From contig JAGAJK010000074.1 of assembly GCA_017626145.1 (NCBI GenBank), forward strand, positions 1 through 64,000: a DNA stretch of 64,000 bases, given 5' to 3'. How positions within the stretch are numbered: the stretch's first letter is position 1; every line of letters starts with the position of its first letter. The notes beneath the pieces were generated by a model that saw only the letters and a list, made by a program, of their open reading frames with translations, made no database searches and was not told where the DNA came from. This DNA comes from Clostridia bacterium. Its GTDB lineage: Bacteria; Bacillota; Clostridia; RGIG6154. Shown one piece after another: positions 5,127-19,709 of the stretch. The position numbers and the translations under genes were made by a program.

Positions 5127-5309
5127 TCACTTTCCATCATCTGTGATTTCTTTTATGTTAATTTGACCTGTTATAATGTAACCGTGACTCAGTGCGAGTG
5201 CCTTAATTTCGGCAATTAGTTTTCTTCGTTCTTCACGTCTTACATTTTGTACAGCTTCAAATGCAGTCATATCCTTATATCCACTTTGGTTGTATTTTTC
5301 TTTATCCAT
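5127..5309 (-). CDS. Small hypothetical ICE protein, about 60 aa
   Basis: Begins MDKEKYNQSGYKDMTAFEAV and continues as a basic, helical protein with no membrane segment. An in-frame extension to 5411 exists, but the ATG at 5309 fits better: it overlaps the methyltransferase stop codon by eight bases and has GGTGG eight bases upstream. Function unknown. Similar small helical proteins sit after VirB4 in related elements, but I cannot name the family. Confidence 0.65.
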   Translation of the reverse strand: MDKEKYNQSGYKDMTAFEAVQNVRREERRKLIAEIKALALSHGYIITGQINIKEITDDGK

Positions 5310-6330
5310 AACATTCGCCACCGCAAAGAACACAGTTATTTGCACATGCTCCTGTTTCAATATCGGCAATATATTTGAGTAAAGGAAATACCTGTTGGGG
5401 ACATACTGCATTACCTAAGACTTTTAGACGATGGGCTCTGTCTTTGGTATGCTCGGTTACTCTTGGAATATCTTTTGGTTCTTCTTTCCATATTAAGTGA
5501 CCGTCCATCCCTTTGGGAATCCCATCAGCCATTCGACCCAATCGGGGTTGATTGCTGCTGTGTCGCTCACCGGAAGTTCCTGTTTGATTATCTGCGATGC
5601 AAGGTTGGCTCCGTCCTTCGACAAAAGCATCGTTTCCGGTTTCAGTGTTGACCGAAATCCGTCCGATGCTATTGGTGTGAGATAAAACACCGCTGCCGAG
5701 AGAGGAAGACTCCATACATTTCCATTTGGGTTTTTCTTCCGAAGAAATCCCTGTTCGGACAAATACACATTCAGACGGAGAGCATCTTTTATGTTGTTTG
5801 TGCTGTCTGATGCAAGAGGTGTTGGAAACATCATGGCCGATGATAAAAGTTCGTTCGCGCTGATGCCACGCGCCGACGCCACAAGCTGGATATACAAATG
5901 ATTGAACGTTGTAGCCTTCACGTTCCAAGTCAAAAATCGTTTTGTCGAGCCCCACATTGATGAACCCAGCAACATTTTCACCAAGCACCCAAGTGGGGTG
6001 TAATTCTCCAATAACTCTTGCCATTTCAGGCCACAAGTAGCGAACATCGGAGAAACCTTTTCTCGTTCCTGCTGCACTGAAGGGTTGACAGGGAAATCCG
6101 CCACTGATGAGGGTGACTTTTTCTTGTCCTGTTGCATTTATAAATTCCTCCTTTGTCAAGTCCCTTATGTCACGAAATCGGGGAACATTTTTCCAATGTT
6201 TCTCTAAAACTTTTATTGGATAATCAGCATTTTCGCATTGAGCAACAGTTTCAAAACCTGCTGCTTCTGCTGCCAAATCAATTCCACCAATTCCTGTAAA
6301 TAAACTAAGATGTGTAAGTCTTTTACTCAT
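5302..6330 (-). CDS. DNA (cytosine-5-)-methyltransferase
   Basis: Methylates cytosine at C5, probably protecting the element from host restriction during transfer. Motifs are in family order: motif I LSLFTGIGGIDLAAEAAGF, motif IV SGGFPCQPFS with the catalytic Cys, motif VI GENVAGF, motif VIII QRERTFIIG, and motif IX/X LKVLGNAVCPQQVFPLL. The region between VIII and IX, the target recognition domain, contains NTSCIRQ, HTNSIGRI and LGRMADGIPKGMDG as in phage and ICE relatives. The ATG at 6330 overlaps the VirB4 stop by eight bases; an upstream in-frame start at 6348 is less likely. No restriction enzyme gene lies nearby, so it looks like an orphan. A second ORF overlaps it in the +1 frame. Confidence 0.93.
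   Translation of the reverse strand: MSKRLTHLSLFTGIGGIDLAAEAAGFETVAQCENADYPIKVLEKHWKNVPRFRDIRDLTKEEFINATGQEKVTLISGGFPCQPFSAAGTRKGFSDVRYLWPEMARVIGELHPTWVLGENVAGFINVGLDKTIFDLEREGYNVQSFVYPACGVGAWHQRERTFIIGHDVSNTSCIRQHKQHKRCSPSECVFVRTGISSEEKPKWKCMESSSLGSGVLSHTNSIGRISVNTETGNDAFVEGRSQPCIADNQTGTSGERHSSNQPRLGRMADGIPKGMDGHLIWKEEPKDIPRVTEHTKDRAHRLKVLGNAVCPQQVFPLLKYIADIETGACANNCVLCGGECYG
5493..6137 (-). CDS. Overprinted ORF inside the C5-methyltransferase gene, 214 aa
   Basis: Lies wholly within the methyltransferase gene in the +1 frame. It begins at an ATG with AAAGGAGG nine bases upstream and stays open for 214 codons. Its product reads like a family I recall beside phage and ICE methylases: a middle segment SLTW-like (STKRFLTWNVKATTFNHLYIQL), MMFPTPLASDS, and a C-terminal INPDWVEWLMGFPKGWT motif. 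The methyltransferase frame over the same bases is also family-like, so both readings appear constrained. Function unknown; it may assist or modulate the methyltransferase. The alternative is that the second frame is only a conserved by-product of codon use in the target recognition domain. Confidence 0.6.
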   Translation of the reverse strand: MQQDKKKSPSSVADFPVNPSVQQEREKVSPMFATCGLKWQELLENYTPLGCLVKMLLGSSMWGSTKRFLTWNVKATTFNHLYIQLVASARGISANELLSSAMMFPTPLASDSTNNIKDALRLNVYLSEQGFLRKKNPNGNVWSLPLSAAVFYLTPIASDGFRSTLKPETMLLSKDGANLASQIIKQELPVSDTAAINPDWVEWLMGFPKGWTVT

Positions 6331-8743
6331 TTTGCACCACTTCTTCAAGTCGTGTTGTCATAAGTTTATAAAGCTCTGTATCTTTCGGGAATCTGTCTTC
6401 AAATGGAATAATTGTGTTACCACAGTAAAGAAGACCGCATCCCGGCGGAGAGTCCTTAATGCAACTTAATTCTTCAGGAGAAATACTTAATTTTTTACCG
6501 AGAAGTTCACGGTCTTCAGGCCCTTGATTAAGCATACAGATATAGTCTGAATTTTCAAAAATATTTTCAACATCATTTGCCTTTAAAAAATCCTTGACAT
6601 TCTGAGTAATACCTGTAGGGATGCCGCCCCATTTACGAAATCTTTTCCAAATTTCAACACTGTATTCTGCGGTTTGCTTTTCTTTAAGAAGAAGATGGAA
6701 CTCGTCAATGTAATATCTTGTATGTTTACCTGTGTTACGGTTCAGTGTTAGTTTATTCCATACTGCATCCTGTACCGTAAGCATACTTATCTTTTTAAGC
6801 TGACTACCAAGTTCTTTTATGTCGAAGCAAACAATTCTGTTGTTAATATCAACATTAGTACGGTAATTGAACTGATTAAGATTACCTGTTACGTACATTT
6901 CAAGTGCTCTTGCAATATGCTGTGCTTCGGGGTCTGGCTGACTTTTTATTACTTCATACAAATCACCAAGAATAGGCATATTCTCCGGTATCGGATTTTG
7001 CATATAATCTTGATATACAATACGAACAGACCTGTCGATAACACTTCGTTCTCCCGGACTTAAACCTTCTCGTCCTGCAAGAATAAGTTCACAGAGCGAA
7101 AGGATAAAATCACTCTTTAAGGCAAGCGGATTTTCACCTTCAGAGTAGTTAAGGTTAATATCCATCGGATTGATGTGGTCTGGTGAATTGGGTGAAAGTT
7201 TTACAACCTGTCCCTTTAGTGCCTGTACCAACGGTGCGTATTCTGCTTCGGGGTCACAGATGAAAATATCATCACCTGTAACAAGATAAACATTTGTCAT
7301 TTCTCTCTTAGCAAAAAAAGACTTACCACTGCCCGGAGAACCTAATATAAGTCCGTTGGGACATCGTAAATCTTTTCTATCAACCATTATGATATTGTGA
7401 GAAATTGCATTTAATCCGCAGTATAGAGCTTCATCACTATCAGAGAACATTTCCTGTGTTAAAAACGGAATAAATATTCCAAGACCTCTTGTTGACATCA
7501 CACGTTCAATCTCTACAGGATTTATACCTATAGGAACACTTGCCATAAGGCCACCTTCCTGTTGGAAGTCAAGTCTTCTTAGAGGATAGTTTCTTTGCTG
7601 ACCTATACTCTGAACAGAGAAGACATCCAACTCAAGCTGCTTCTTCGTAGGTGCAGTATTCATAATAAAAACAGTGATTTTAAAGAGTCTTTCACTATGG
7701 GACTGTAATGCTTCCAAAAGTCCAAGAGCATCATCACCGAAAGAGTTAATATCCGGTGGAAGTATATCCATATCATAACCGGAGCGAACTGCTTTCTTTT
7801 GTTCCTCAATCTTCATCTTGTTAATATCCGTAAGTTTCCTTTTTATCATTTTGATAGCTTCCGTTTGGTCTATTGGTTGGAAGTGGATATTTACAGCAAT
7901 ATTTTTATCAAAATCAAGAAATTCCTTTAAGACTGTATCCCAAATTTCTGTTGTGATTATCTCCATTACGGTTACTGCACCGAAAGTAGAACCCATTTTG
8001 AAAATCTGAGCATTGTCCCTTGGGAAGTAGAAGGATGATGGTGCGATGAAATCCTTTGATGAAAGTCCTGTCTGTGCAATCATATTCCAATTAAAGTTAA
8101 ATTTATTATTATCATACTGATTGAAGCATCTGTGCAATAGTTCCAAACGTTCCAAGCCGTTAAGAACATATGAACGGACTCCAAAGACTTTGAATTTGTT
8201 CATAATATCGTGCTCAATAGTTTCAAGTTTATGCTTTGCCATTTTAATGTCATCAGCATAAATTCCAAAAGTAACAAATTTGCGTTTCTCAATGCCGTTG
8301 TTTCCTTTGGCAAGCTGATTTTCAAGCATTTGATTATATTCGACACGTATATAGTCAAAGTCATCGTTCTGAAGCGGAATACGAATTGCTTTTTCATATT
8401 TCTTAACATCCATCTGCAAATTCAAAAAAGAAAGCTGAATGTGGATAGATTTATCAAAGTGATTTAAGAATTTGCAATAACTACCGTAAATAGAGTCTTT
8501 ATCGCTATCTGAAGCATACTTATAGTTGATGTCAAAAAAGTGTATTGTTTTCGTGTAAAAATTGTTTGTAACAACACAAATTCCATCGGGACGCATTTCT
8601 TTATACGCAATAGTATCTTGTGCCGACATCGCAATTTTACCTTGCATTTTTGCCTTTTTTACCGCATCTGCTAACTGTCTTTTTTGTTTTAGGGACAGTG
8701 GCTTGTTTTTGGGGATGCGGATTTTTGTATTCTGAGCCGACAA
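6323..8743 (-). CDS. VirB4/TraE-type conjugation ATPase (CD1110 family)
   Basis: Hexameric ATPase that powers assembly of the type IV secretion channel at the inner face of the membrane. About 806 residues, usual for the family. Walker A is GSPGSGKS near residue 465 and Walker B is YYIDEFHLLL near 683; the N-terminal half carries the VirB4 interaction domain (YTKTIHFFDINYKY). The start is taken as TTG at 8743 because AAAAGGAGG sits nine bases upstream, whereas an earlier TTG at 8752 directly abuts that site. The gene overlaps prgI by 107 bases and ends inside the methyltransferase start, so the block is tightly coupled. Confidence 0.95.
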   Translation of the reverse strand: MSAQNTKIRIPKNKPLSLKQKRQLADAVKKAKMQGKIAMSAQDTIAYKEMRPDGICVVTNNFYTKTIHFFDINYKYASDSDKDSIYGSYCKFLNHFDKSIHIQLSFLNLQMDVKKYEKAIRIPLQNDDFDYIRVEYNQMLENQLAKGNNGIEKRKFVTFGIYADDIKMAKHKLETIEHDIMNKFKVFGVRSYVLNGLERLELLHRCFNQYDNNKFNFNWNMIAQTGLSSKDFIAPSSFYFPRDNAQIFKMGSTFGAVTVMEIITTEIWDTVLKEFLDFDKNIAVNIHFQPIDQTEAIKMIKRKLTDINKMKIEEQKKAVRSGYDMDILPPDINSFGDDALGLLEALQSHSERLFKITVFIMNTAPTKKQLELDVFSVQSIGQQRNYPLRRLDFQQEGGLMASVPIGINPVEIERVMSTRGLGIFIPFLTQEMFSDSDEALYCGLNAISHNIIMVDRKDLRCPNGLILGSPGSGKSFFAKREMTNVYLVTGDDIFICDPEAEYAPLVQALKGQVVKLSPNSPDHINPMDINLNYSEGENPLALKSDFILSLCELILAGREGLSPGERSVIDRSVRIVYQDYMQNPIPENMPILGDLYEVIKSQPDPEAQHIARALEMYVTGNLNQFNYRTNVDINNRIVCFDIKELGSQLKKISMLTVQDAVWNKLTLNRNTGKHTRYYIDEFHLLLKEKQTAEYSVEIWKRFRKWGGIPTGITQNVKDFLKANDVENIFENSDYICMLNQGPEDRELLGKKLSISPEELSCIKDSPPGCGLLYCGNTIIPFEDRFPKDTELYKLMTTRLEEVVQNE

Positions 8744-9095
8744 TTCTCTCAACCTCCTTTTCTAATTCGATTTGTTTTTCTATAGCTGAGTATAGATTGT
8801 TGGTTCGGTAAGGTCTTATATCCGGTTTCTTAAATCTGAAAATTATATAATTTTTTATGATTTTTTCTAAAGGTTGTCCGTTTTTTTCATACATTGCAAA
8901 GAAGAAGCAAGGCATAGAAGTCACAAGCAGACATAACACCGCGCCTGTAGAACCAAACACATTTCTTGTGAGCAAGTATGTGGGAATACCTATGGCCCCG
9001 GCTAAGCCGAAACAGATAAGTTGCCTTTTTGTAAGATTAAATGCAACTTTTGTTTTAATTTTCGCTAAATCCTTCGGGATTCGTACATATGGCAT
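8637..9095 (-). CDS. PrgI family (VirB3-like) conjugation membrane protein
   Basis: Small T4SS subunit that partners VirB4. The 152 residues start with the family signature MPYVRIPKDL, have two adjacent membrane helices (about 27-45 and 49-68), and continue with a cytoplasmic segment (KPDIRPYRTNNLYSAIEKQ) and a Lys-rich tail. The last 107 bases also encode the N-terminus of VirB4 in another frame; both ends look real because the VirB4 Shine-Dalgarno lies inside prgI. Confidence 0.9.
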   Translation of the reverse strand: MPYVRIPKDLAKIKTKVAFNLTKRQLICFGLAGAIGIPTYLLTRNVFGSTGAVLCLLVTSMPCFFFAMYEKNGQPLEKIIKNYIIFRFKKPDIRPYRTNNLYSAIEKQIELEKEVERIVGSEYKNPHPQKQATVPKTKKTVSRCGKKGKNAR

Positions 9096-9111: not shown

Positions 9112-9981
9112 TTAATGTGCGTTGAATATGGACTTGGAAATCGTTCCTGTTTTAAACAGAGTAAAGCAAAGAACAACCGTATATGCTGCCACAGAGAAAA
9201 TCGTGGAATGAATATTGGATGTTGCTGTGAAACTGTTCACAAGTGCCGCATAAATTCCTACACACACCATAATGAAAAATCCTTGAAAACCTAACGCAAC
9301 AAGACCTCTTAAATAGTTGCTGCCGACCTGACCCCATTCACGGTTCATCATAGTCGCAAAAGGTATTGCACCTACAGAACTGTACAAGTAAATTTCTATC
9401 ATTCTGCCGAAAATGACGACGGTTATACATATCGACAAAATTTTCATACACAGACTAACAAGTGCTGTTTCAAGCATCAATGCAAATAATTCGCCTGTAC
9501 CCATCGCTTCCAAGGTGGTTCGTATATCGGTTAGTGCCGATGATATGTCGATGTGAGTATTCGAGGCTATGACAGATGAACTGTTCTGTACAATGTGCTG
9601 TCCCACATCAAATACTGCCATTATAATATCAAAAGTATTTGTTACAATTACAATAGCAACACACGCCTTGAAAAAATACTTAAAGAACATAAAAGTATCT
9701 ACATCGTGCATATTGTTTTTTTCCATAATCATAGATATAAGTTCATAACAAAGCACGAAAGTAATAATGAGGCCGGCTATGGGTACAATTACCGTTTCCG
9801 ATAGGTTTTGAATTATCGAAAACACACTTGAGTTCCATTGTTGTGGTGTCTGACCGACCTCATTTGCGATAGTGCCGACTTTATCATTTACATCATCAAA
9901 CATAGTGCTTAAATTGCTTTCTATAATTGACATTAAAAAGTCGTTGATGGCCTGTGTAATTTTATCAAAAATACTATCCAT
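9112..9981 (-). CDS. VirB6/TrbL-like conjugation channel protein
   Basis: Polytopic inner-membrane channel component of Gram-positive T4SSs. The 289 residues comprise an N-terminal amphipathic region (MDSIFDKITQAINDFLMSII) and about five to six membrane helices, for example TVIVPIAGLIITFVLCYEL, FKACVAIVIVTNTFDIIM, ALVSLCMKILSICITVVIF and ALGFQGFFIMVCVGIYAALV. The conserved stretch SVGAIPFATMMNREWGQVG is typical of the ICE VirB6 family. It lies directly after Maff2 and before prgI, as in Tn1549-type elements. Confidence 0.88.
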   Translation of the reverse strand: MDSIFDKITQAINDFLMSIIESNLSTMFDDVNDKVGTIANEVGQTPQQWNSSVFSIIQNLSETVIVPIAGLIITFVLCYELISMIMEKNNMHDVDTFMFFKYFFKACVAIVIVTNTFDIIMAVFDVGQHIVQNSSSVIASNTHIDISSALTDIRTTLEAMGTGELFALMLETALVSLCMKILSICITVVIFGRMIEIYLYSSVGAIPFATMMNREWGQVGSNYLRGLVALGFQGFFIMVCVGIYAALVNSFTATSNIHSTIFSVAAYTVVLCFTLFKTGTISKSIFNAH

Positions 9982-10228: not shown

Positions 10229-12025
10229 TTAAGGTTCTGGACGTTCTGTGGGAAGTTGAAGGTTTTCCATATTGATGGTAAACACTTGAACTTTTTCTTC
10301 GGGATTGAGTTTTGGTTTGCGTGATTTCTGATATTTCTGAATGTCAAATGCGTTCTTTTTGTCAAAATCCGATAAGTACTTATAGTTCGGATGCTTCGTT
10401 ATATCAAATTTATCTGACAAAAACGGTCTGCATCCTTTAAGTTGCAAAATACATTTCTTACCCTTCATAACAGCAATTTCATCTTCACTCATAAGGGATT
10501 TACCAAGTTTTTGGTAGTTCATGCCGTATGAGTTCTGATTACTTCGAGTTTCCGATGTGTTGTAAATATCAATAGTTTCCTTACCCAAAGTTTCAGCCAA
10601 ATCTTTCAAAGTACTTTGCTCACGGCCACCTAAGAAAAGTACACTATCACAGTTACCGAAGATGGTATCTGCATTTTCTTTATAAATTGCCTTGAGCTGA
10701 CTCTTGGCCTGAATTACAAGTGCTGCCGAAATCTCACGACTTCGGATAACACTCAATATTCGATGTAGGTTGGGAATGGTGATGTTTGCAACCTCGTCAA
10801 GAAGACATCTTACGTGGATTGGAAGTCTGCCGTTGTACACATCATCAGCTTTAGTACAAAGGATGTTAAAAAGCTGTGAAACAACAAATGCCGTGACAAA
10901 ATCAAAAGTACTATCAGTATCACTTGTTATGATAAATAAAGCGGTTTTCGTATCTCCCAATGTGTCAAGTTCCAATTCGTCATATTCCATAAGTTCACGG
11001 AGTTCCCTTATATCAAAAGGGGCGAGTCTTGCACCGCAACTTACTAAGATTGACTTAGCAGTTTTTCCGGCACTTAACTTGAACTTTGTGTATTGACGGA
11101 CTGCATAATGGTCGGGGTCACGTTCTGCCAATTCATCAAATATTCTGTCAACGGCATTTTTAAAGTTTTCATCATCTTCACGGACTTCAAAGGAATTTAT
11201 CATATCCAAAAGCAATGTGAAATTCTTTTCTTCCTCAGGAGCTTCATACCAAATATATCCGATTAGGGCATTGTACAAAAGTCGTTCTGCTTTCACCCAA
11301 AAATCTTCACTGTTTTTTTCTCCTTCACCTTTGGTATTCTGAATAAGAGTATTTGTTAATTTCATAATATCTTTTTCATCGTGAATATACTCAAAGGGAT
11401 TATAATGTAATGATTTTTTGAAGTTAATGGTGTTAAGCACCTTGATTTTATAACCACCCTTTACAAGCATTTTCCCACATTCGATAAGAATAGTACCCTT
11501 GGGGTCTGTTATCACATATGAACTGTTCATCTGCATCAGGTTCGGTTTTACAAAAAACCTTGTTTTACCTGAACCTGAACCACCAATTACCAACACATTT
11601 TTATTTGTGTTATAATCGGGGTTTGCCATACGGCTATTCATAGACAAACGCTCAGTTTGGGTTAGGATAATATTGTTATAAAAGTTTTCGTCAATGTAGG
11701 GAGCAACATCATCTGCGTTACCCCAACGTGCAGAACCATATTCGATTCCTTGACGAAATTTCTTCGCATTTTTTCCTTTGATGATGATAAACCACTTCAT
11801 TGCTATTGCAACCAAAATACCAATTAAAATATCGGTGATATTGAAAGAAAACAACGGTGGTTTGAACATCTTTGAAATCCCATCGACTATCCCAAGTAAG
11901 AAGTTGCTGCTGTGCCGACAGGAGTATGAGATTTTATCTCCAATCCATATAAAAAAAGCGAATGGAAGATTTTTTAAGATAAGTTTTTTGTTGAGCTTAG
12001 ACTTGAGTTTTGATTTTAAATTCAT
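10229..12025 (-). CDS. VirD4/TraG type IV coupling protein (CD1115 family)
   Basis: ATPase that recruits the relaxase-DNA complex to the secretion channel. 598 residues with two N-terminal hydrophobic segments (about 22-37 and 64-84), Walker A GGSGSGKTRFF near residue 150, Walker B CLLDEVANI near 411 and the downstream TraG motifs (LGGREQSTLKDLAETLG). The start ATG overlaps the pcfB stop by four bases, which implies translational coupling. It is the first core T4SS gene after pcfB. Confidence 0.96.
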   Translation of the reverse strand: MNLKSKLKSKLNKKLILKNLPFAFFIWIGDKISYSCRHSSNFLLGIVDGISKMFKPPLFSFNITDILIGILVAIAMKWFIIIKGKNAKKFRQGIEYGSARWGNADDVAPYIDENFYNNIILTQTERLSMNSRMANPDYNTNKNVLVIGGSGSGKTRFFVKPNLMQMNSSYVITDPKGTILIECGKMLVKGGYKIKVLNTINFKKSLHYNPFEYIHDEKDIMKLTNTLIQNTKGEGEKNSEDFWVKAERLLYNALIGYIWYEAPEEEKNFTLLLDMINSFEVREDDENFKNAVDRIFDELAERDPDHYAVRQYTKFKLSAGKTAKSILVSCGARLAPFDIRELRELMEYDELELDTLGDTKTALFIITSDTDSTFDFVTAFVVSQLFNILCTKADDVYNGRLPIHVRCLLDEVANITIPNLHRILSVIRSREISAALVIQAKSQLKAIYKENADTIFGNCDSVLFLGGREQSTLKDLAETLGKETIDIYNTSETRSNQNSYGMNYQKLGKSLMSEDEIAVMKGKKCILQLKGCRPFLSDKFDITKHPNYKYLSDFDKKNAFDIQKYQKSRKPKLNPEEKVQVFTINMENLQLPTERPEP

Positions 12026-12495
12026 AGCTCAATATCTCTGCTTCTATGCTTATCTCTATCTGCCGTTCGCTCGTTCTTGATTTGCTCTCTGAAGTTCTTC
12101 AGTTTTTGCCGAATAGAAGGTTTTTCCTTGTGTTTTAACACCTTTGCTGTGTACTCTCGGAAAGCATACTCGAAAGCATCTTTGTTATTGGACTGAAAGA
12201 AGACATAGTATGTTGGTGGGTCTTGTGTTTTATCCTTCTCAATGCCGTACATAATCTTATGTTTTTTTGCGACTTTATCAAAGGATTTGATATTCTTTTT
12301 GCTTATTTCAACACTTGAGTACGACCCACCATGCCTCATCAGTTCCTTTAGGGAGTGTTTGCCACTTTTCAGTTCAGTTGGCTTATTATGTTTATGCCTT
12401 AAATATTCACGCATAGCCATAGCCAAAACTCGGCCCGAAAGTTTTGCACCTTTTATTGCAAGAACAATAGTTTTTTCATTGATTTCATCTTGCAT
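12022..12495 (-). CDS. PcfB family protein (DUF3801)
   Basis: Accessory protein of conjugative plasmids and ICEs. PcfB of pCF10 is part of the substrate-processing set, and a role with the coupling protein is inferred here from the four-base overlap with virD4. 157 residues with an N-terminal helical region (VLAIKGAKLSGRVLAMAMREY), the family core SGKHSLKELMRHGGS and FDKVAKKHKIMYGIEKD, and a basic tail. GGGGGTG lies seven bases upstream of the ATG. A 28-base gap separates it from the S-layer-domain gene. Confidence 0.88.
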   Translation of the reverse strand: MQDEINEKTIVLAIKGAKLSGRVLAMAMREYLRHKHNKPTELKSGKHSLKELMRHGGSYSSVEISKKNIKSFDKVAKKHKIMYGIEKDKTQDPPTYYVFFQSNNKDAFEYAFREYTAKVLKHKEKPSIRQKLKNFREQIKNERTADRDKHRSRDIEL

Positions 12496-12523: not shown

Positions 12524-15500
12524 TTATTTAGTCCAAGTTTCACCTTCAGAAGTTGTAATGCCGATATGTTCATTTGCTGCTTCGTTCACGTCCGCAAAAT
12601 ACCATTTGCTACTGTCGTTTACATCAGTGAATCTATTGAGCTTAGTGAAGTTTTTATTGATATAATCAATGTCTGCACTTCTGCCTGTAGCTCTGTTTAC
12701 AACTGCAACAACTTCGGCACGAGTGATGTTGTTATCACCACGGAATGTACCATCTGCATAACCGTTAAGCCATCCTGTGTTCTTTGCATATGCGATTTCT
12801 TTTACCGCCCAATAACTGCTCGGAACATCTGTATATTTTACGGTTGTAGCAGTGAAAGATACATCGTTAAACAGGTCATAATATCTTACTGTCATTGCAA
12901 TAAATTCTGCTCTTGATACAAAATCATCGGGACGGAATGTTTTATCCGAATATCCCTTGATAATTTCATATTTTTCAAGATAAGAAATATAGTTAATGTA
13001 CCATTCGTTTTTAGATACATCCTTGAAAGAAGTGGATGTACCGGAAATCTTTTCGCCCTTTGCTTCAGAGATAAGTCTTGCAAAAATGGCTGCCGCTTCA
13101 GCACGTGACATATTACCTTCAGGTCTGAATGTGCTATCAGGGTATCCAAAGATATACGCAGTGTGCTTTTTACCCGGTAACATTACAACACCGTTTGCAT
13201 CGGTTTTACCTTTAACTTCGTTACCACTTCTGTCCTTTAAAACAACTTCATAATCGGCTTTAACTTTTCCTGAAGATTTTACTGTGATAGTATAATAATT
13301 ATCATCAGTGAGTTTCTTGCCTGTAGGTAATGTCAAAGTTGCCTTTGTTGTTGATGTGGATTTTGAAACGGATACGTTCTTATTATCCTTATCAACTACA
13401 GTGATTGTAGTAGAAGAATAAGAACCACCGCCACCACCGCCGCCGGAGTATGAACTACCACCTGAAGAACCACCACTTGAGGTTTTAACAGGAAGAGTTA
13501 CTTTACCGTTGCTGTTAGTAGTTCCGGTTTTTGAAGTATTGGTTTTATCTGTCATAGTTACAGAAACATTTGCAACAGGTTTGTTTTCACCGTCTGTAAC
13601 AGTTGCCGTAATCTGATTTGATGTTGTCAAAGTGTGTGTATCGGGAATAGTGATATAAACTTTGCCATCCTCAATTTTTACTAAGGCATTTGGAATGTTA
13701 CCCTTTGTATCTGCCAATGCAACATTATAAGTTGTTGTGATAACTTCGCCGGGCTTGTCTTCAGTTCCGTCACCGTTTGTATCTTCACCCGGTTTTTCTT
13801 CCTTATTGGTTACATCGGAGTTACCATCGCCATCGGTAATGTCTTCAGAAAGCGGAGGAACAATAACCTTACCGTTTTCATCTGTCTTACCATTTGCGGT
13901 TTTGGGTTCTGCTGCCTGTGTATCATCTTCGGCTTTTGGAGCTTCAGAAACAGTTACAGAAATATCTTTTACAGGTTTTTTTTCTGTTTTATTTACAACA
14001 GTTACAGTAATTCTGTTCGTGTGAACAATCTTACTTTCTGTCGGAAGAAGAACTGTGATAGAACCGTCTTCATTTAATGTTAAGGAAACATTTTCTAAAG
14101 GCTTGGTTTCATCGACAACAGTGATGGAATATTCATTCAATTCGCCATAACCGTTCTTATCGGTAATATCGAAGGTTGTCGGAGGAACAACGGCCTTACC
14201 GTCCTTATCTGTGAGATTGCTTTCGGTTCGTCCCGCTTTGTCTTTTACAACTACATTCATATCTTTGATGGGGTTATCTTCGCTATCGGTGACAGTTACA
14301 GTAATTCTATTATCTACTGTAATTTCTTTACCTTCAGGAAGCTCAACACTCAATTTATCGTCCTCGTATTTGATAAAAGCACCCGGAATAACACCGTTTT
14401 CATCTTCAACAGTAATTTTGTTTCCATTTACAACAGCTTTACCTTCGCTGTCAGTAATATCCTCTGAAAGAGGGGGTACGGTCATAACACCGTTTTCATC
14501 AGTGATGCCACTGCACTCATTTTCGGAAGTATCTTTAACTGTAACACTCATATCCTTAACTGCCACACCGTCTTTGTCAAGAACGGTTACACGGATTCTG
14601 TTGTTATAGTCAATAAGAGTTTCAGTCGGAAGAACAACAGAAATTGTATTGTCTTCGTTGTATGTCACATAAGCATTTTCGATTTTCTTTGTTTCGTCTT
14701 CAACGATAACATTAAATCCGTTAATGTGAACTTTTCCGTCTTTATCTGTATAACCGCTGTTTACAGGGGGAACGGTTAATTTACCATATCTATCAGTAAC
14801 ACCTTTTTCGATGTAGTCCTTATCTGCAATAACAATTACAGAAACATCTTTCTGAGGATTACCATTATGGTCTTTTATTGTAACAATAACAGGGCTTTCC
14901 TTTGTGAGAATTAAACCATCAGGAAGGTCGATAACAACATTGTTGCTTTCGCCAATCTTGATTTCGCAGTTCAGGATTGTCACATTATATTTATCGGTTA
15001 CGGATACAACATAAGTATTTTTCTTATCTTCAATCTCGTTGCCGATTGTACCGTTATCGTCACCTGTGCTACTCTGATTGTTCGGAACTTTAAGCTGTCC
15101 GTTAGCATCGGTTGTACCTGTAGCATTGTTTCCGTTTAAATCTTCAATAAAGATATTCAGACCCGATGCAGGCTTCTGATTTTCAGTATAAAATGCAGTG
15201 ATGGTTGTTTGGTCTGCAAAGTCCAAAAGTCTTCCGTTTGGAAGTTTTATTGTCACCATATCATTTACATCAATAATGATTTCAGAATTAAATACAGGAA
15301 CACCATTTTTATCTGTTAAAATGATGCTGAAAGCTCCGATTTCTGCTTTACCGTCTTCATCAGTACGGTCACTATCTACAAGCTGTGCAATGTCGGCTGT
15401 CTGCAATTTTTCACCACAAACAGTACATTCAATATGTTTGCTGCCGCCACCTGTGATAGTTGCCGGAGTATCTATTATCCATTCAGAAGGGGTATGTCCT

Positions 15501-17851
15501 GTAGGCTCAAGATAATCTACTTTTACAGTGTCACCACATTCAGTACAGGTCTTGGTTGTATAACCCAAAGTTGTACAAGAGGGTGCAGTGATTACGGACT
15601 CGTAATTGTGAGGAAGTTTATCTACATAATTTCCAATGTAACTTTCGCCACATTCACAAGTGAAAGTCGAATATCCCATTTCAGTACAGGTTGCCGGAGT
15701 TTTAACTTCCACATAAGAATGTTCTTTATTTTCTGTATATTCTCCTATGTAAGAAGCTCCGCAGTCGGGACACTCAAAAACAGAATATCCGTGTTCTTCA
15801 CAAGTAGGTTCAATAACCTTTTTGTTGTAATTATGCTCTAATTTATCAGTATAGTCACCGATGTAAGAATCACCGCAAGAACAGGTGTATTTTGTATGAC
15901 CGAACTCTGAGCAAGTCGGATTTTTTACTTCTGTAGTATAGTCGTGAGGAAGTTTGTCAATGAAATTTCCAATGTATTCTGCATCACAGTTTTTACACGA
16001 AAATTCAGTATGACCCATTCCTGTGCAAGTGGGAGCAACAATTTTTTCTGCAAAATCGTGGTCGATTTTATCAACGAAATCTGTTGTATATGTATCTCCG
16101 CAATCGCAAATATATGTTGAAAATCCCATTGCCGTACAAGTTGGCTCTGTGATTTCTACAGTATGATTATGTCCGAGAGGAAGAACTAAAACCGTTTCAC
16201 AAACTGTACAAATTTGCGGCTCGGTGCAAGTTGCTTCAGCGCCCGGTGTGTGACCTGTAGCACTGTCGGAAATAATCATTTTTTCATCGCAGTTTTTACA
16301 TAAATGTTCTATAACACCTTCAGATGTACAGGTAGAAGATGTAACGGAAGTTCCTTCATCCCAATCGTGACCTAATGGGTCTGTATGATTTGAAACATAA
16401 CTGCTTCCGCACATTGTACAGGTGCTTGTGGTATAACCACCGTCAACACAAGTCGGCTCCTTCGTCACATGCTCGTAAGAGTGAGAGATTAAAGGAGTCA
16501 TATCAGTGATGTAATTGTCACCGCAAACCGAACAGATATGTTCTGTAAATCCTACACTTCTGCAAGTAGCATTGTGTTTATGCGGTTCATATTTATGTTC
16601 ACCTTTTGCTGTGGTTGTCTGATGGAAGTCACCACAGTTTTTACATAAGGTAAGTTTCAACCCGCCCTGTTTGCAAGTTGCTTCTCTAATAATAACATCT
16701 TCATAATCGTGACCTACTGCCGGAGTATAATTCATCTTATGAAGTTCTCCGCAACCATCACACTGCCATCTTTCATAACCAAGGTTCTCACAAGACGGAG
16801 CAACCGTTTCTAAGTATCTGTAGTCGTGCTCGTGTGAAGGCGGAACTACAATAATGGTGTCACCGCCATTATCTTCATTTTCTTCAAGAAGCCAAACATA
16901 GCTCACACCGTTTTCAGTCATTTCTTCTCCGGCATATGAATATGTAATTTTATAATAAATCGGATAGTAACCTGCTTCGGTGTAGTTGGGGGCGCTTGTT
17001 CTGTTACAGTTTTCAGCAGTAGTTCCGTAACGGATAGATGTTCTAACACCACTTTCCGAAAGGTCACTTACTGTAACTGTGTGTGCATCACCGTCTTCAT
17101 TACCGTAATAGGATGAAATAACGGATTTTGCAGTCACATATTCACTTGACTCATAACCGCAATCAGAACATTTTTCTGTTGTATAAAAGCGGTTATTACT
17201 AAGCTGTGCATCAACACTTTCTGTAAAGTCGTGATATTCAAGGCCTGTTGTAGCTCGTGCCGTTGTACCTTTGCAGTACTGACAATACTTACCACGCTTC
17301 AAAGAAGTAATATGATAATCTTCATCGTATTGATTGTATGTTGTTGCATCAAAGTCGATAAAGAAGTTATAGTCACAGGCGTGAAGACTATATACATTAT
17401 TATTAAAGTCATACGCACCATAACCGTTTACCGAGTTGATTGTTCCACAGAGCTGACAGACACTTTTGGTATAGTGATGTCCGGTATAGTAAGCATCAAT
17501 TCCCGGAGAACCACTGTCGGTATTACCTGTACTTTCACCATCTATCTTCGTACCATCTGAATACTTCACATCACGGTTAAGTGCTGTTTCACCACTTCGG
17601 GTATATTCAGGTACACGGTAGGTTAAAACTGTCGTGTTTTTATCGCATACGCAACAATACTGAGTTTCGTATGTTGTGGTTGCATTTACATCAAGTTCGT
17701 TGGTTCTGCCGTTGGAGTTAAGCCAATTATCAGCAGGGTCAACGTATTCGTTGCTTTGTGCCGCAAATGTTGTCATCGGAACAACACTAATAAGCATCGC
17801 AACCGAAAGCAATAAAGAAATAACTGATTTTAAATTAGTTTTATGTTTCAT
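12524..17851 (-). CDS. Giant secreted cysteine-repeat / Ig-like-repeat protein with S-layer homology domains
   Basis: Surface protein of 1,775 residues, by far the largest cargo of the element. A signal peptide (SVISLLLSVAMLISVVPMTTFA) is followed by an N-terminal region with several CxxC pairs, then about 13 cysteine repeats (residues about 337-813), six to seven Ig-like or carboxypeptidase-regulatory-like modules of about 105 residues (about 820-1,455), a Gly/Ser linker and three C-terminal SLH domains (YIFGYPDSTFRPEGNMSRAE, IIKGYSDKTFRPDDFVSRAE, WLNGYADGTFRGDNNITRAE). SLH domains bind secondary cell-wall polymer, so the protein probably decorates the cell surface and may act as an adhesin or mating-aggregation factor (inference). 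AAGGAGG precedes the ATG by 11 bases. Confidence 0.88.
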   Translation of the reverse strand: MKHKTNLKSVISLLLSVAMLISVVPMTTFAAQSNEYVDPADNWLNSNGRTNELDVNATTTYETQYCCVCDKNTTVLTYRVPEYTRSGETALNRDVKYSDGTKIDGESTGNTDSGSPGIDAYYTGHHYTKSVCQLCGTINSVNGYGAYDFNNNVYSLHACDYNFFIDFDATTYNQYDEDYHITSLKRGKYCQYCKGTTARATTGLEYHDFTESVDAQLSNNRFYTTEKCSDCGYESSEYVTAKSVISSYYGNEDGDAHTVTVSDLSESGVRTSIRYGTTAENCNRTSAPNYTEAGYYPIYYKITYSYAGEEMTENGVSYVWLLEENEDNGGDTIIVVPPSHEHDYRYLETVAPSCENLGYERWQCDGCGELHKMNYTPAVGHDYEDVIIREATCKQGGLKLTLCKNCGDFHQTTTAKGEHKYEPHKHNATCRSVGFTEHICSVCGDNYITDMTPLISHSYEHVTKEPTCVDGGYTTSTCTMCGSSYVSNHTDPLGHDWDEGTSVTSSTCTSEGVIEHLCKNCDEKMIISDSATGHTPGAEATCTEPQICTVCETVLVLPLGHNHTVEITEPTCTAMGFSTYICDCGDTYTTDFVDKIDHDFAEKIVAPTCTGMGHTEFSCKNCDAEYIGNFIDKLPHDYTTEVKNPTCSEFGHTKYTCSCGDSYIGDYTDKLEHNYNKKVIEPTCEEHGYSVFECPDCGASYIGEYTENKEHSYVEVKTPATCTEMGYSTFTCECGESYIGNYVDKLPHNYESVITAPSCTTLGYTTKTCTECGDTVKVDYLEPTGHTPSEWIIDTPATITGGGSKHIECTVCGEKLQTADIAQLVDSDRTDEDGKAEIGAFSIILTDKNGVPVFNSEIIIDVNDMVTIKLPNGRLLDFADQTTITAFYTENQKPASGLNIFIEDLNGNNATGTTDANGQLKVPNNQSSTGDDNGTIGNEIEDKKNTYVVSVTDKYNVTILNCEIKIGESNNVVIDLPDGLILTKESPVIVTIKDHNGNPQKDVSVIVIADKDYIEKGVTDRYGKLTVPPVNSGYTDKDGKVHINGFNVIVEDETKKIENAYVTYNEDNTISVVLPTETLIDYNNRIRVTVLDKDGVAVKDMSVTVKDTSENECSGITDENGVMTVPPLSEDITDSEGKAVVNGNKITVEDENGVIPGAFIKYEDDKLSVELPEGKEITVDNRITVTVTDSEDNPIKDMNVVVKDKAGRTESNLTDKDGKAVVPPTTFDITDKNGYGELNEYSITVVDETKPLENVSLTLNEDGSITVLLPTESKIVHTNRITVTVVNKTEKKPVKDISVTVSEAPKAEDDTQAAEPKTANGKTDENGKVIVPPLSEDITDGDGNSDVTNKEEKPGEDTNGDGTEDKPGEVITTTYNVALADTKGNIPNALVKIEDGKVYITIPDTHTLTTSNQITATVTDGENKPVANVSVTMTDKTNTSKTGTTNSNGKVTLPVKTSSGGSSGGSSYSGGGGGGGSYSSTTITVVDKDNKNVSVSKSTSTTKATLTLPTGKKLTDDNYYTITVKSSGKVKADYEVVLKDRSGNEVKGKTDANGVVMLPGKKHTAYIFGYPDSTFRPEGNMSRAEAAAIFARLISEAKGEKISGTSTSFKDVSKNEWYINYISYLEKYEIIKGYSDKTFRPDDFVSRAEFIAMTVRYYDLFNDVSFTATTVKYTDVPSSYWAVKEIAYAKNTGWLNGYADGTFRGDNNITRAEVVAVVNRATGRSADIDYINKNFTKLNRFTDVNDSSKWYFADVNEAANEHIGITTSEGETWTK
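13480..15390 (-). repeat. Coding repeats: Ig-like / regulatory-domain modules
   Basis: Six to seven copies of a module built from TDKDGKAxV, xxITVxDE, a beta hairpin ending in LPxGxxI, then RITVTVTDxxxxPxKDMxVxVKD and TDxNGKxxVPP. The SED/SGY linker between copies is also repeated. These resemble carboxypeptidase-regulatory-like or SpaA-like beta-sandwich stalk domains that extend a surface protein from the wall. Confidence 0.75.
15410..16840 (-). repeat. Coding tandem repeats: about 13 cysteine-pair units
   Basis: Units of roughly 33-38 residues follow the pattern P-T-C-(5)-G-(4)-C-x-x-C-G-(8-12)-H-x-Y. Twelve keep the cysteines and the last (TPATITGGGSKHIECTVCG) has lost the first one. The spacing suggests small zinc-ribbon or disulfide-knuckle domains. 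Several units share near-identical wording (SYIGNYVDKLPHNY, EYIGNFIDKLPHDY), pointing to recent duplication. Confidence 0.85.
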
Positions 17852-17952: not shown

Positions 17953-18828
17953 TCAGCCACCATACATATCGTGATTTACCTGTGTGGTATAATAACTATC
18001 CATCGTGGACGGAGCATTAAATAATACCGCAAGTAAATACTTTTTGATATTCCTTACGTCAGTTGTATTTTTCTTCATACAGTCAATGACATATTCGATA
18101 TGTCCTGCATCAAGTTTTAAGAACTTTGATTTAACCAATGCTGCCGGATATTCGTCACCTGCTATGGTTAAGTAATCTTTTGCTGTGCATACGGTTTCGG
18201 TAAGAAGGTCAACAATTTCATCGAGCATTGAAATGTCGTGTTTTAAGTTGATAGCCAAAATCTCATAGTCGATATTTTCTTTGATAATTTCTCTGTATGT
18301 TTCGACCTCATCTAATCCAATCTTTTCCTTATTATATTTAGGAATTGATTGGATAGGATTTGATGTATTTATAATTGATAAATTATTACTTGATTCTTTT
18401 TTATTTAAAGAATTAGTATTTAATTGTGTTGGATTATCCGATGCCGAATTTTCCGATGTCGGTTTTACCGTTATCGGATTTTCCAATATCGGTTTCTCCG
18501 TTGTTGGATTTTCCAATATCGGTGATGGAACTTCTTGGGGATATTCGTAAATAATGTACTCAGTTTTTGACATTCGACCATTAGAGTCACGAGTCTGTCT
18601 TCGAGTTATATATCCGAATTTTTCAAGCTCCCAAATTGCGGTTCGGATTGCATCAACTTTTTCACGATTTATCTTGGCAAGTCCCGCCAATGTATAATCC
18701 CAATTATCCGGTAGGGAAAGCATCTGAGAGAGAAGACCTTTCGACTTTAATGAAAGCTCACGATTTTTCAGATGGTGATTTGACATTACCGTATAATTTT
18801 GATTTTTCTCAACTCTGAATACGGCCAT
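17953..18828 (-). CDS. DUF6017 helix-turn-helix protein (replication-initiator-like)
   Basis: Regulator or replication-associated protein found at the head of many Tn1549-like elements. Residues 1-95 form a winged-helix replication-initiator-like domain (NYTVMSNHHLKNRELSLKSKG, then YTLAGLAKINREKVDAIRTA). Residues 95-150 are a low-complexity repeat linker, and the C-terminus is DUF6017 (AGDEYPAALVKSKFLKLDAGHIEYV and YLLAVLFNAPSTMDSYY). Whether it starts replication of the excised circle or controls transcription is not established. AAGGAG precedes the ATG. About 100 bases separate it from the large surface protein. Confidence 0.87.
   Translation of the reverse strand: MAVFRVEKNQNYTVMSNHHLKNRELSLKSKGLLSQMLSLPDNWDYTLAGLAKINREKVDAIRTAIWELEKFGYITRRQTRDSNGRMSKTEYIIYEYPQEVPSPILENPTTEKPILENPITVKPTSENSASDNPTQLNTNSLNKKESSNNLSIINTSNPIQSIPKYNKEKIGLDEVETYREIIKENIDYEILAINLKHDISMLDEIVDLLTETVCTAKDYLTIAGDEYPAALVKSKFLKLDAGHIEYVIDCMKKNTTDVRNIKKYLLAVLFNAPSTMDSYYTTQVNHDMYGG
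18476..18523. repeat. 30-bp-period repeat inside the DUF6017 gene linker
   Basis: The 18-base string GGATTTTCCAATATCGGT occurs at 18476-18493 and again at 18506-18523, within a run encoding ten-residue units of the type PILENPTTEK. Such Asn-Pro-Thr-Glu linkers probably change length by slippage between element copies. Confidence 0.75.
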
Positions 18829-19042: not shown

Positions 19043-19185
19043 ATATAAAATCACTCTCCTTGAAAATTTTACTATACGAAAATTTGTGTTTTTGAAAAAA
19101 ATATAGTATAATAAAAGCCGGATTGAAAATGGCATAACGAAAAGAGTCGGTGCAACCCTCTTGTAAAGTTACTAAACTTTTATAT

Positions 19186-19220
19186 AAAAAAAGAACATTC
19201 AGTTGTTTAACCAAATGTTC
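19186..19220 (-). terminator. Strong intrinsic terminator, minus strand
   Basis: Arms 19193-19204 and 19209-19220 form a 12-bp stem on the minus-strand RNA, with two G-U pairs, an AAAC loop and a T7 tract. On the plus strand the two wobble positions become mismatches, so it is directional. It would end the spore-protein transcript before it enters the element. Confidence 0.8.
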
Positions 19221-19242
19221 TTGAAATATATTAAATTGTTTT

Positions 19243-19278
19243 ACCCATCAAGATACCCACCAAGATACCCACCAAGAT
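19243..19278. repeat. Three tandem 12-bp repeats (candidate integrase arm sites)
   Basis: ACCCATCAAGAT (19243-19254) is followed by two copies of ACCCACCAAGAT (19255-19266, 19267-19278), head to tail without spacers. They are non-coding and lie next to the presumed ICE end. Tandem direct repeats of this size near element ends are typical arm-binding sites for tyrosine recombinases; the assignment is inference. Confidence 0.55.
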
Positions 19279-19303
19279 ATTTCGTGGATTTATTGGGTTT
19301 TTG

Positions 19304-19558
19304 CTATAGTCCTGCAACCATCGAAAGGGTAATATGTGTGCAGTGTCCGTATGCGTTTCGGTTAATTCTTTGGAACTTCCATTGTTGTTCTGGCATCATC
19401 AGATTAACCATCTGACCGCCTACTGAACCTGCCTGCTTTGAAGTAAGGTCACCGTTATAACCCTGCTTTAAGTTTACGCCTACTTCAGAAGCAGCTTCCA
19501 TTTTGAATCTGTCAAGAGCTTCTCTTGCTTCAGGTACTACTACTTTACTTTTAGCCAT
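19304..19558 (-). CDS. Alpha/beta-type small acid-soluble spore protein with atypical C-terminus
   Basis: DNA-binding protein that saturates and protects the forespore chromosome. Residues 1-50 match the family closely: VPEAREALDRFKMEAASEVGV, the GPR-cleavage region, GYNGDLTSKQAGSVGGQMV. After that the usual MIEAAE-type ending is replaced by MMPEQQWKFQRINRNAYGHC and a further 11 residues ending in MVAGL, unlike any SASP tail I know. The gene abuts the presumed ICE end, so the tail may have been supplied by insertion of the element. The ATG at 19558 has AGGAG 11 bases upstream; an in-frame start at 19600 adds a non-family leader. Confidence 0.85.
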   Translation of the reverse strand: MAKSKVVVPEAREALDRFKMEAASEVGVNLKQGYNGDLTSKQAGSVGGQMVNLMMPEQQWKFQRINRNAYGHCTHITLSMVAGL

Positions 19559-19709
19559 TTTAAAAAACACTCCTTGTATATATTTAGTGACTAAGTACAA
19601 AAATATTTTAAGAAAAAATGTTTTTGCCCTGAATCACAATAATATTTTAAACATTCAAAAAGGTTATATACAGTTATGTTTTTCTTATTGCGACAAAATT
19701 TGTAAAAAT

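Follow-up and report, generated by a model that had tools for sequence, protein, structure and literature searches.

A giant SLH-domain protein family in conjugative modules of Clostridia, with a candidate role in mating contact

The stretch of DNA analysed here (the window, 64,000 nucleotides) carries a gene for a giant protein with three SLH domains, which lies among transfer genes and has relatives on about five different element backbones. We regard the giant as very probably a component of conjugative modules. Judged from its sequence and surroundings, it would be a conjugation-dedicated mating adhesin on the donor surface, serving SLH-anchored envelopes (probability of roughly 55%). This reading draws on the position of the gene in a transfer operon, its recurrence on and exchange between several backbones, its near-restriction to SLH-rich hosts and the low dN/dS of its N-terminal head. 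The presence of close relatives in several unrelated transfer systems of SLH-anchoring gut bacteria suggests that the giant is probably a standard part of donor-recipient contact and not random cargo. Only for very few Gram-positive conjugative elements is such contact understood in detail, and an SLH-anchored family shared by several unrelated elements in gut Clostridia provides a direct handle on mating in bacteria with S-layer-type anchoring.

Architecture and constraint of the giant protein

The open reading frame has an ATG start and no internal stops. The features of the protein and of the neighbouring genes are collected in the table. In the predicted signal peptide region, A30, A31 and Q32 are invariant in alignment A1. 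The repeat region is built of units of approximately C-x9-C-x(1,2)-C-x13-H; in total, the protein has 17 CxxC/CxC motifs, 13 of them in this region and the other four in the head. Pfam recovers four Big_1 stretches in the stalk (E 5.2e-18), where seven Ig-type TDxxGxxxVP turns can be counted, and three SLH stretches at the C-terminus (E 7.8e-35). These numbers agree with the initial annotation, which had described a 5.3-kb gene with 13 cysteine knuckles, six to seven Ig-like modules and three SLH domains. Searches of Pfam, NCBIfam and PHROGs with the head gave no match, and a PDB profile search returned a single one at chance level (E 0.9). By eye, the end of the head resembles what we take to be a YDG-type Ig segment. 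Structure prediction from the window sequence only gave pLDDT values of 30.3 and 35.9 for the head and part of the repeat array.

Features of the giant gene, its neighbours and the TED-SpaA counterparts (window positions unless a locus is named)
Feature	Position	Strand	Basis
VirB4-like ATPase (presumed)	6323..8752	-	sequence, position, order kept in relatives
PrgI-family protein	8637..9095	-	Pfam
TrbL_2/VirB6-like protein	9112..9981	-	Pfam
VirD4/TraG coupling protein	10229..12025	-	Pfam
DUF3801 (PcfB-like) protein	12022..12495	-	Pfam
SLH giant gene, 1775 aa	12524..17851	-	ORF and homologs
Conserved C-terminal tail (EAAN.H...ETW.K)	12527..12634	-	C-termini of complete homologs
Three SLH domains (12710-12838, 12899-13030, 13091-13153)	12710..13153	-	SLH search
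Ig-like (Big_1-type) stalk, aa 830-1560, seven turns	13172..15364	-	Pfam and turn count
Cys/His repeat array, aa 340-815, 13 knuckles	15407..16834	-	motif count
N-terminal head, aa 30-330	16862..17764	-	alignment and dN/dS
Signal peptide, aa 1-30, mature start near AQSNEYVDPAD	17762..17851	-	by eye
DUF6017/HTH_36 replication-initiator-like protein	17953..18828	-	Pfam
Probable right end: conserved hairpin, then divergent flank	19178..19240	.	DNA comparison
TED-SpaA protein	L035 11170-16176		Pfam
TED-SpaA protein	L046 13507-18447		profile
TED-SpaA protein	L130 8370-12020		Pfam

In an alignment of 16 full-length homologs, 49 of the giant's 51 cysteines are 88-100% conserved, and one histidine per repeat is conserved as well. 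The giant thus displays a conserved pattern of three cysteines and one histidine per repeat, which would suit a metal site better than paired disulfides. The number of repeats varies from 6 to 21 in complete genes (strict pattern), while the head, the SLH part and the tail are constant. The dN/dS of the giant gene is 0.081 in comparison with locus L096 and 0.054 in comparison with L103, and that of the head alone is 0.044; both the giant and its head are below RepA (0.138 and 0.089), and the head is the most constrained of the parts tested. The giant is under strong purifying selection. The conservation of cysteines in the 16 homologs and a dN/dS of 0.05-0.08 against two close homologs indicate that the observation is more than chance.

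Genomic setting in the window and beyond

The giant, the DUF6017/HTH gene and the DUF3801-VirD4 pair lie on one strand. The gaps flanking the giant measure 101 bp on the DUF6017 side and 28 bp on the DUF3801 side, and neither contains a terminator-like site on the minus strand. In the window, the genes follow in the order DUF6017 Rep, DUF3801, VirD4, TrbL, PrgI and VirB4, the last of which we name from its sequence and position. The slot between a regulator and a coupling-protein operon was correctly recognised in the initial annotation, and its proposal that a conjugative element here encodes a surface protein anchored by SLH domains is supported. The window's own element is a putative ICE, of which neither the relaxase nor the integrase was found; its contig starts at window base 1. 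The element extends past this contig start, and its other end is therefore out of view. From its gene order, which is kept in relatives, we regard the element as putatively Tn1549-like. The host genome (2.78 Mb in 98 contigs with 94 SLH matches; the window is bases 1-64000 of contig 46) has four relaxase loci elsewhere, among ParM, MobC and recombinase genes, none of which could be linked to the window element. The gene after VirB4 (window 5302-6348), presumably for a DNA methylase-like product judging from its sequence, has a 61% identical counterpart at L119 6642-7661, likewise after VirB4. Near-identical VirD4 and C-terminal giant pieces occur in deer gut MAGs (L029, L030).

Loci L105, L103 and L096, from three other families, are 98%, 93% and 89% similar to the window at the DNA level. 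The similarity runs from the giant through RepA to ∼19.07-19.08 kb and returns in a hairpin block at 19.17-19.24 kb; the right end of the element is probably at about 19.18-19.24 kb. Extra DNA at the element end (∼107 and 55 bp within window 19070-19300) is absent from all three loci, and part of it is a short tandem repeat. In genomes G000, G358 and G326, representing three families, the right end (window 19178-19600) lies just 3' of an alpha/beta SASP gene, and a 47-bp stretch inside this gene is identical in the three genomes; G172 has another flank. The 3' end of the SASP gene may be the integration site. The 47-bp stretch has one copy in each of three of the four genomes, and the second end of the window element was not located through this stretch or through the relaxase loci.

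A search of 391 genomes of the class with the N-terminal 884 amino acids (E<=0.001) found matches in 89 genomes, mostly to the repeats only. By our reading of the resulting table, the family proper is present in 24 of the 391, the weakest cases counted being G341 (38%) and G362, which has a piece of 63 aa at a contig edge. A C-terminal piece of a giant (78%) was found in G002. The flanks were read at 36 family loci, some of them contig-edge fragments. The divergent outlier in G341 (L109, head 31% identical) was set apart from these loci and from the pair statistics and kept in the tree. Replication, mobilisation or T4SS genes adjoin the giant in 35 loci, and the 36th (L107) is a 7.6-kb contig, too short to tell. 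Chromosomal copies in relatives without the element, named in the initial annotation as contrary evidence, were not seen among these loci.

The 35 loci fall into five backbones. In backbone A (20 loci) the giant adjoins a DUF6017 Rep and/or DUF3801-VirD4, and in backbone B (11 loci) it follows MobC-relaxase-PcfB. Backbone C (two loci) has a VirD4 of 26-27% identity and an S1-domain neighbour; backbone D (one locus) has a relaxase, a flavodoxin and a VirD4 of 24% identity; backbone E (one locus) has a VirB4-like protein of 25% identity, ArdA and T2SSE. At some B loci, the stretch read contains no transfer genes other than those for a relaxase and a coupling protein, and so these elements may be mobilisable and not self-transmissible. 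Monoglobus pectinilyticus TSDC17.2-1.2 (NZ_OY725736) carries a relative in the order MobC-relaxase-PcfB-giant-PIN-VirD4-recombinase. Its giant (L114 15980-21777) is split into two overlapping frames, and may be a broken copy, a two-gene version or a sequencing error. No relatives were recovered from IMG/VR, whether by the protein or by the head alignment, and phage records gave two short matches, to repeats only. A match in a Butyrivibrio plasmid was discounted (26% of the query covered, 33% identity).

When 398 genomes of the phylum were queried with the head only, six matched: the genome of the window and five others, all from a single genus of another class. The heads of this second class are ∼50% identical, with one of the five genomes (G737) matching only weakly. 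Four of eight second-class loci adjoin VirB4, PrgI and TrbL, and their giants sit beside DUF4366-like and topoisomerase-like genes, a different slot from that in the window; the other four have a topoisomerase, ParA/ParB, actin-like (ParM-type) or ParB_N gene alongside. The SLH anchor is present in both second-class giants run in Pfam, and all five genomes are SLH-bearing (27-78 matches). The idea that these hosts (f180) are diderm was dropped, with LpxC absent in 5/5.

Exchange between backbones and near-restriction to SLH-rich hosts

Across the approximately five backbones, VirD4 is 24-73% identical to that of the window, and the heads are 57-75% identical to the window's (57-71% in 12 diverged alignment rows). 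We built a tree of 31 heads with IQ-TREE and counted changes of the backbone label on it. The A label changes seven times, at least six of these being forced by well-supported branches, and the B label changes 10 times, at least seven being forced. The six or more forced changes of the A label indicate that the gene moves between unrelated elements. The heads of L104 (backbone A, G274) and L064 (backbone B, G021) are 95% alike, and A and B elements residing in the same genome have close heads in G014 (84%), G236 (79%) and G079 (85%). The mean head identity of same-genome pairs across backbones is 75% (n=9) vs 68% for different-genome pairs (n=246; permutation 0.0007, the pairs being not independent).

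The likeness of co-resident heads is more in keeping with a ligand matched to host or partner than with head-specific exclusion, and bears on an alternative that we consider unlikely, namely that the giant is a surface or entry exclusion factor, coating its host and blocking redundant transfer from like elements. In its favour are the place of the gene in the transfer operon and the probable exposure of the product at the surface; moreover, one element with a relaxase and a short coupling protein, and no T4SS genes in the stretch read, keeps the giant, and exclusion could still pay there. However, giants coexist within genomes, G081 and G079 each having no fewer than three loci and G581 four, and the greater-than-average likeness of co-resident heads on different backbones is the reverse of the prediction.

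Copies in other families (G326, G172, G358) are 94-99% identical, which shows recent movement across families, assuming correct binning of the MAG contigs. Genomes G013 and G196, from different families, share 4.86 kb at 99.98% identity, and the flank beyond differs.

Among 78 DUF3801-positive genomes, the giant is present in 13 of the 27 with at least 50 SLH candidates vs none of the 51 with fewer (Fisher 9e-8, from a table tallied by hand with first-look SLH candidate numbers and relatedness uncorrected). Because hosts and elements are related, both this and the permutation value overstate independence. At the locus level, we examined 57 DUF3801 rows, of which L053 and L112 were unscorable in that view; 40 of 107 further DUF3801 matches were read, favouring the best and the SLH-rich. 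The giant sits beside DUF3801 in 17 of the 57 rows, and in none of the 18 rows from SLH-free hosts. Another 20 rows come from SLH-bearing hosts and have no adjoining giant (at least one of them, L119, is cut by a contig edge); they include two further elements of G052, itself a giant carrier. Together, the locus survey and the 78-genome tally indicate that SLH anchoring looks nearly necessary for persistence of the gene, and not sufficient. The exception is G013, a carrier with only three SLH matches; its copy is at a contig edge, and its 4.86-kb stretch is the one matching SLH-rich G196. Both G013 and the 20 rows count against the mating-adhesin reading, the latter meaning that the giant is not needed by every element.

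The near-restriction to SLH-rich hosts and the linkage, on several backbones, to genes for coupling proteins and the T4SS would also be expected of a part for remodelling of the envelope or S-layer, which lines or opens the SLH-anchored layer for the T4SS channel and binds no cells. We find this improbable: at some loci (such as L114) the giant is seen beside relaxase and coupling-protein genes only, other elements in the same SLH-rich genomes do without it, and the conserved distal head is left unexplained. The least likely alternative is fitness cargo: the giant would serve its host cell in gut adhesion, nutrient binding or shielding against phages, and the element would be no more than its vehicle. 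One can point here to the many SLH proteins of these hosts (such as those of the window's genome) and to similar Cys/His repeats in other large clostridial proteins, but the head occurs on several backbones, lies within or next to transfer genes at every locus with readable flanks, and was not found in chromosomal loci. The label of cargo given by the initial annotation is accordingly replaced by that of a recurring component of several backbones, placed in the transfer operon and under strong purifying selection. Of the three functions proposed there, mating contact fits best, ahead of adhesion and phage sensitivity.

A model of mating contact and its known counterparts

As a mating adhesin, the giant would be made together with the coupling-protein operon, exported by its signal peptide and anchored to the secondary cell-wall polymer through the SLH domains at its C-terminus. 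With the Ig stalk and the Cys/His rod as spacers, the conserved head would stand away from the envelope, where it might contact a common feature of recipient cells and bring mating partners together. We only tentatively extend this to a portable mating-contact module, a single head family joined to an SLH anchor and swapped, within hosts that they share, among about five backbones in two classes, in which SLH anchoring, and not the type of T4SS, would decide the adhesin and the Cys/His rod would be a zinc-stiffened extracellular stalk. If so, the choice of adhesin would help to set the host range of an element, and such a stalk would be previously undescribed. The exchange between backbones points to adhesion as an interchangeable module, one that can broaden or restrict gene flow in the gut.

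Possible counterparts occur on related elements. Loci L035, L046 and L130, in hosts without the giant, have a VirD4 of 62-65% identity and encode long TED and SpaA proteins with sortase-type C-termini; L035 and L130 match the thioester domain PF08341. The giant itself has no Pfam match to PF08341 or CnaB/SpaA at E<=1. The TED-SpaA proteins share the architecture of TIEpLS20 (p34), and thereby favour the mating-adhesin reading. According to the accessible part of PMC8092201, TIEpLS20 is a TED adhesin of the pLS20 conjugation operon needed in the donor for efficient conjugation. Like the giant, it is secreted, has an N-terminal head and an Ig-type stalk, and is encoded in a conjugation operon; in the giant's case the gene order is kept in relatives. 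In contrast to the giant with its SLH domains and Cys/His rod, TIEpLS20 has no SLH module in that description. PrgB of pCF10 promotes mating aggregates and, produced along with conjugation genes, similarly has its head on an Ig-like stalk, but it contains a polymer adhesin domain and is anchored by sortase, where the giant has an SLH C-terminus (PMC10588982, in part); neither a polymer adhesin domain nor an LPXTG anchor was matched in the giant by Pfam or NCBIfam.

Stalked surface proteins also recur on conjugative transposons of other Clostridia. CTn1 and CTn7 of C. difficile carry the CnaB LPXTG proteins CD0386 and CD3392, which differ from the giant in being sortase-anchored, with two Cna B repeats and no identifiable head, and are treated as accessory genes in the portion of PMC3158075 available. 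In 023_CTn3 of C. difficile, insertion into a CnaB sortase-substrate gene still gave filter transfer near 1e-7, so such proteins can be dispensable, which argues against the mating-adhesin reading (PMC6814731, in part). SLH is unmentioned in the accessible text of a review of polymer adhesin domains on mobile elements (PMC7726212), and we found no paper in open-licence PMC text on an SLH protein as a conjugation component. With its signal peptide (by eye) and three C-terminal SLH domains, the giant resembles the SLH surface proteins of Firmicutes (PF00395), but its family is found only in mobile contexts and has a specific shared head and tail. Its anchor, rod and head are undescribed for conjugation adhesins in open-licence PMC text, and the giant represents a new family of a known kind.
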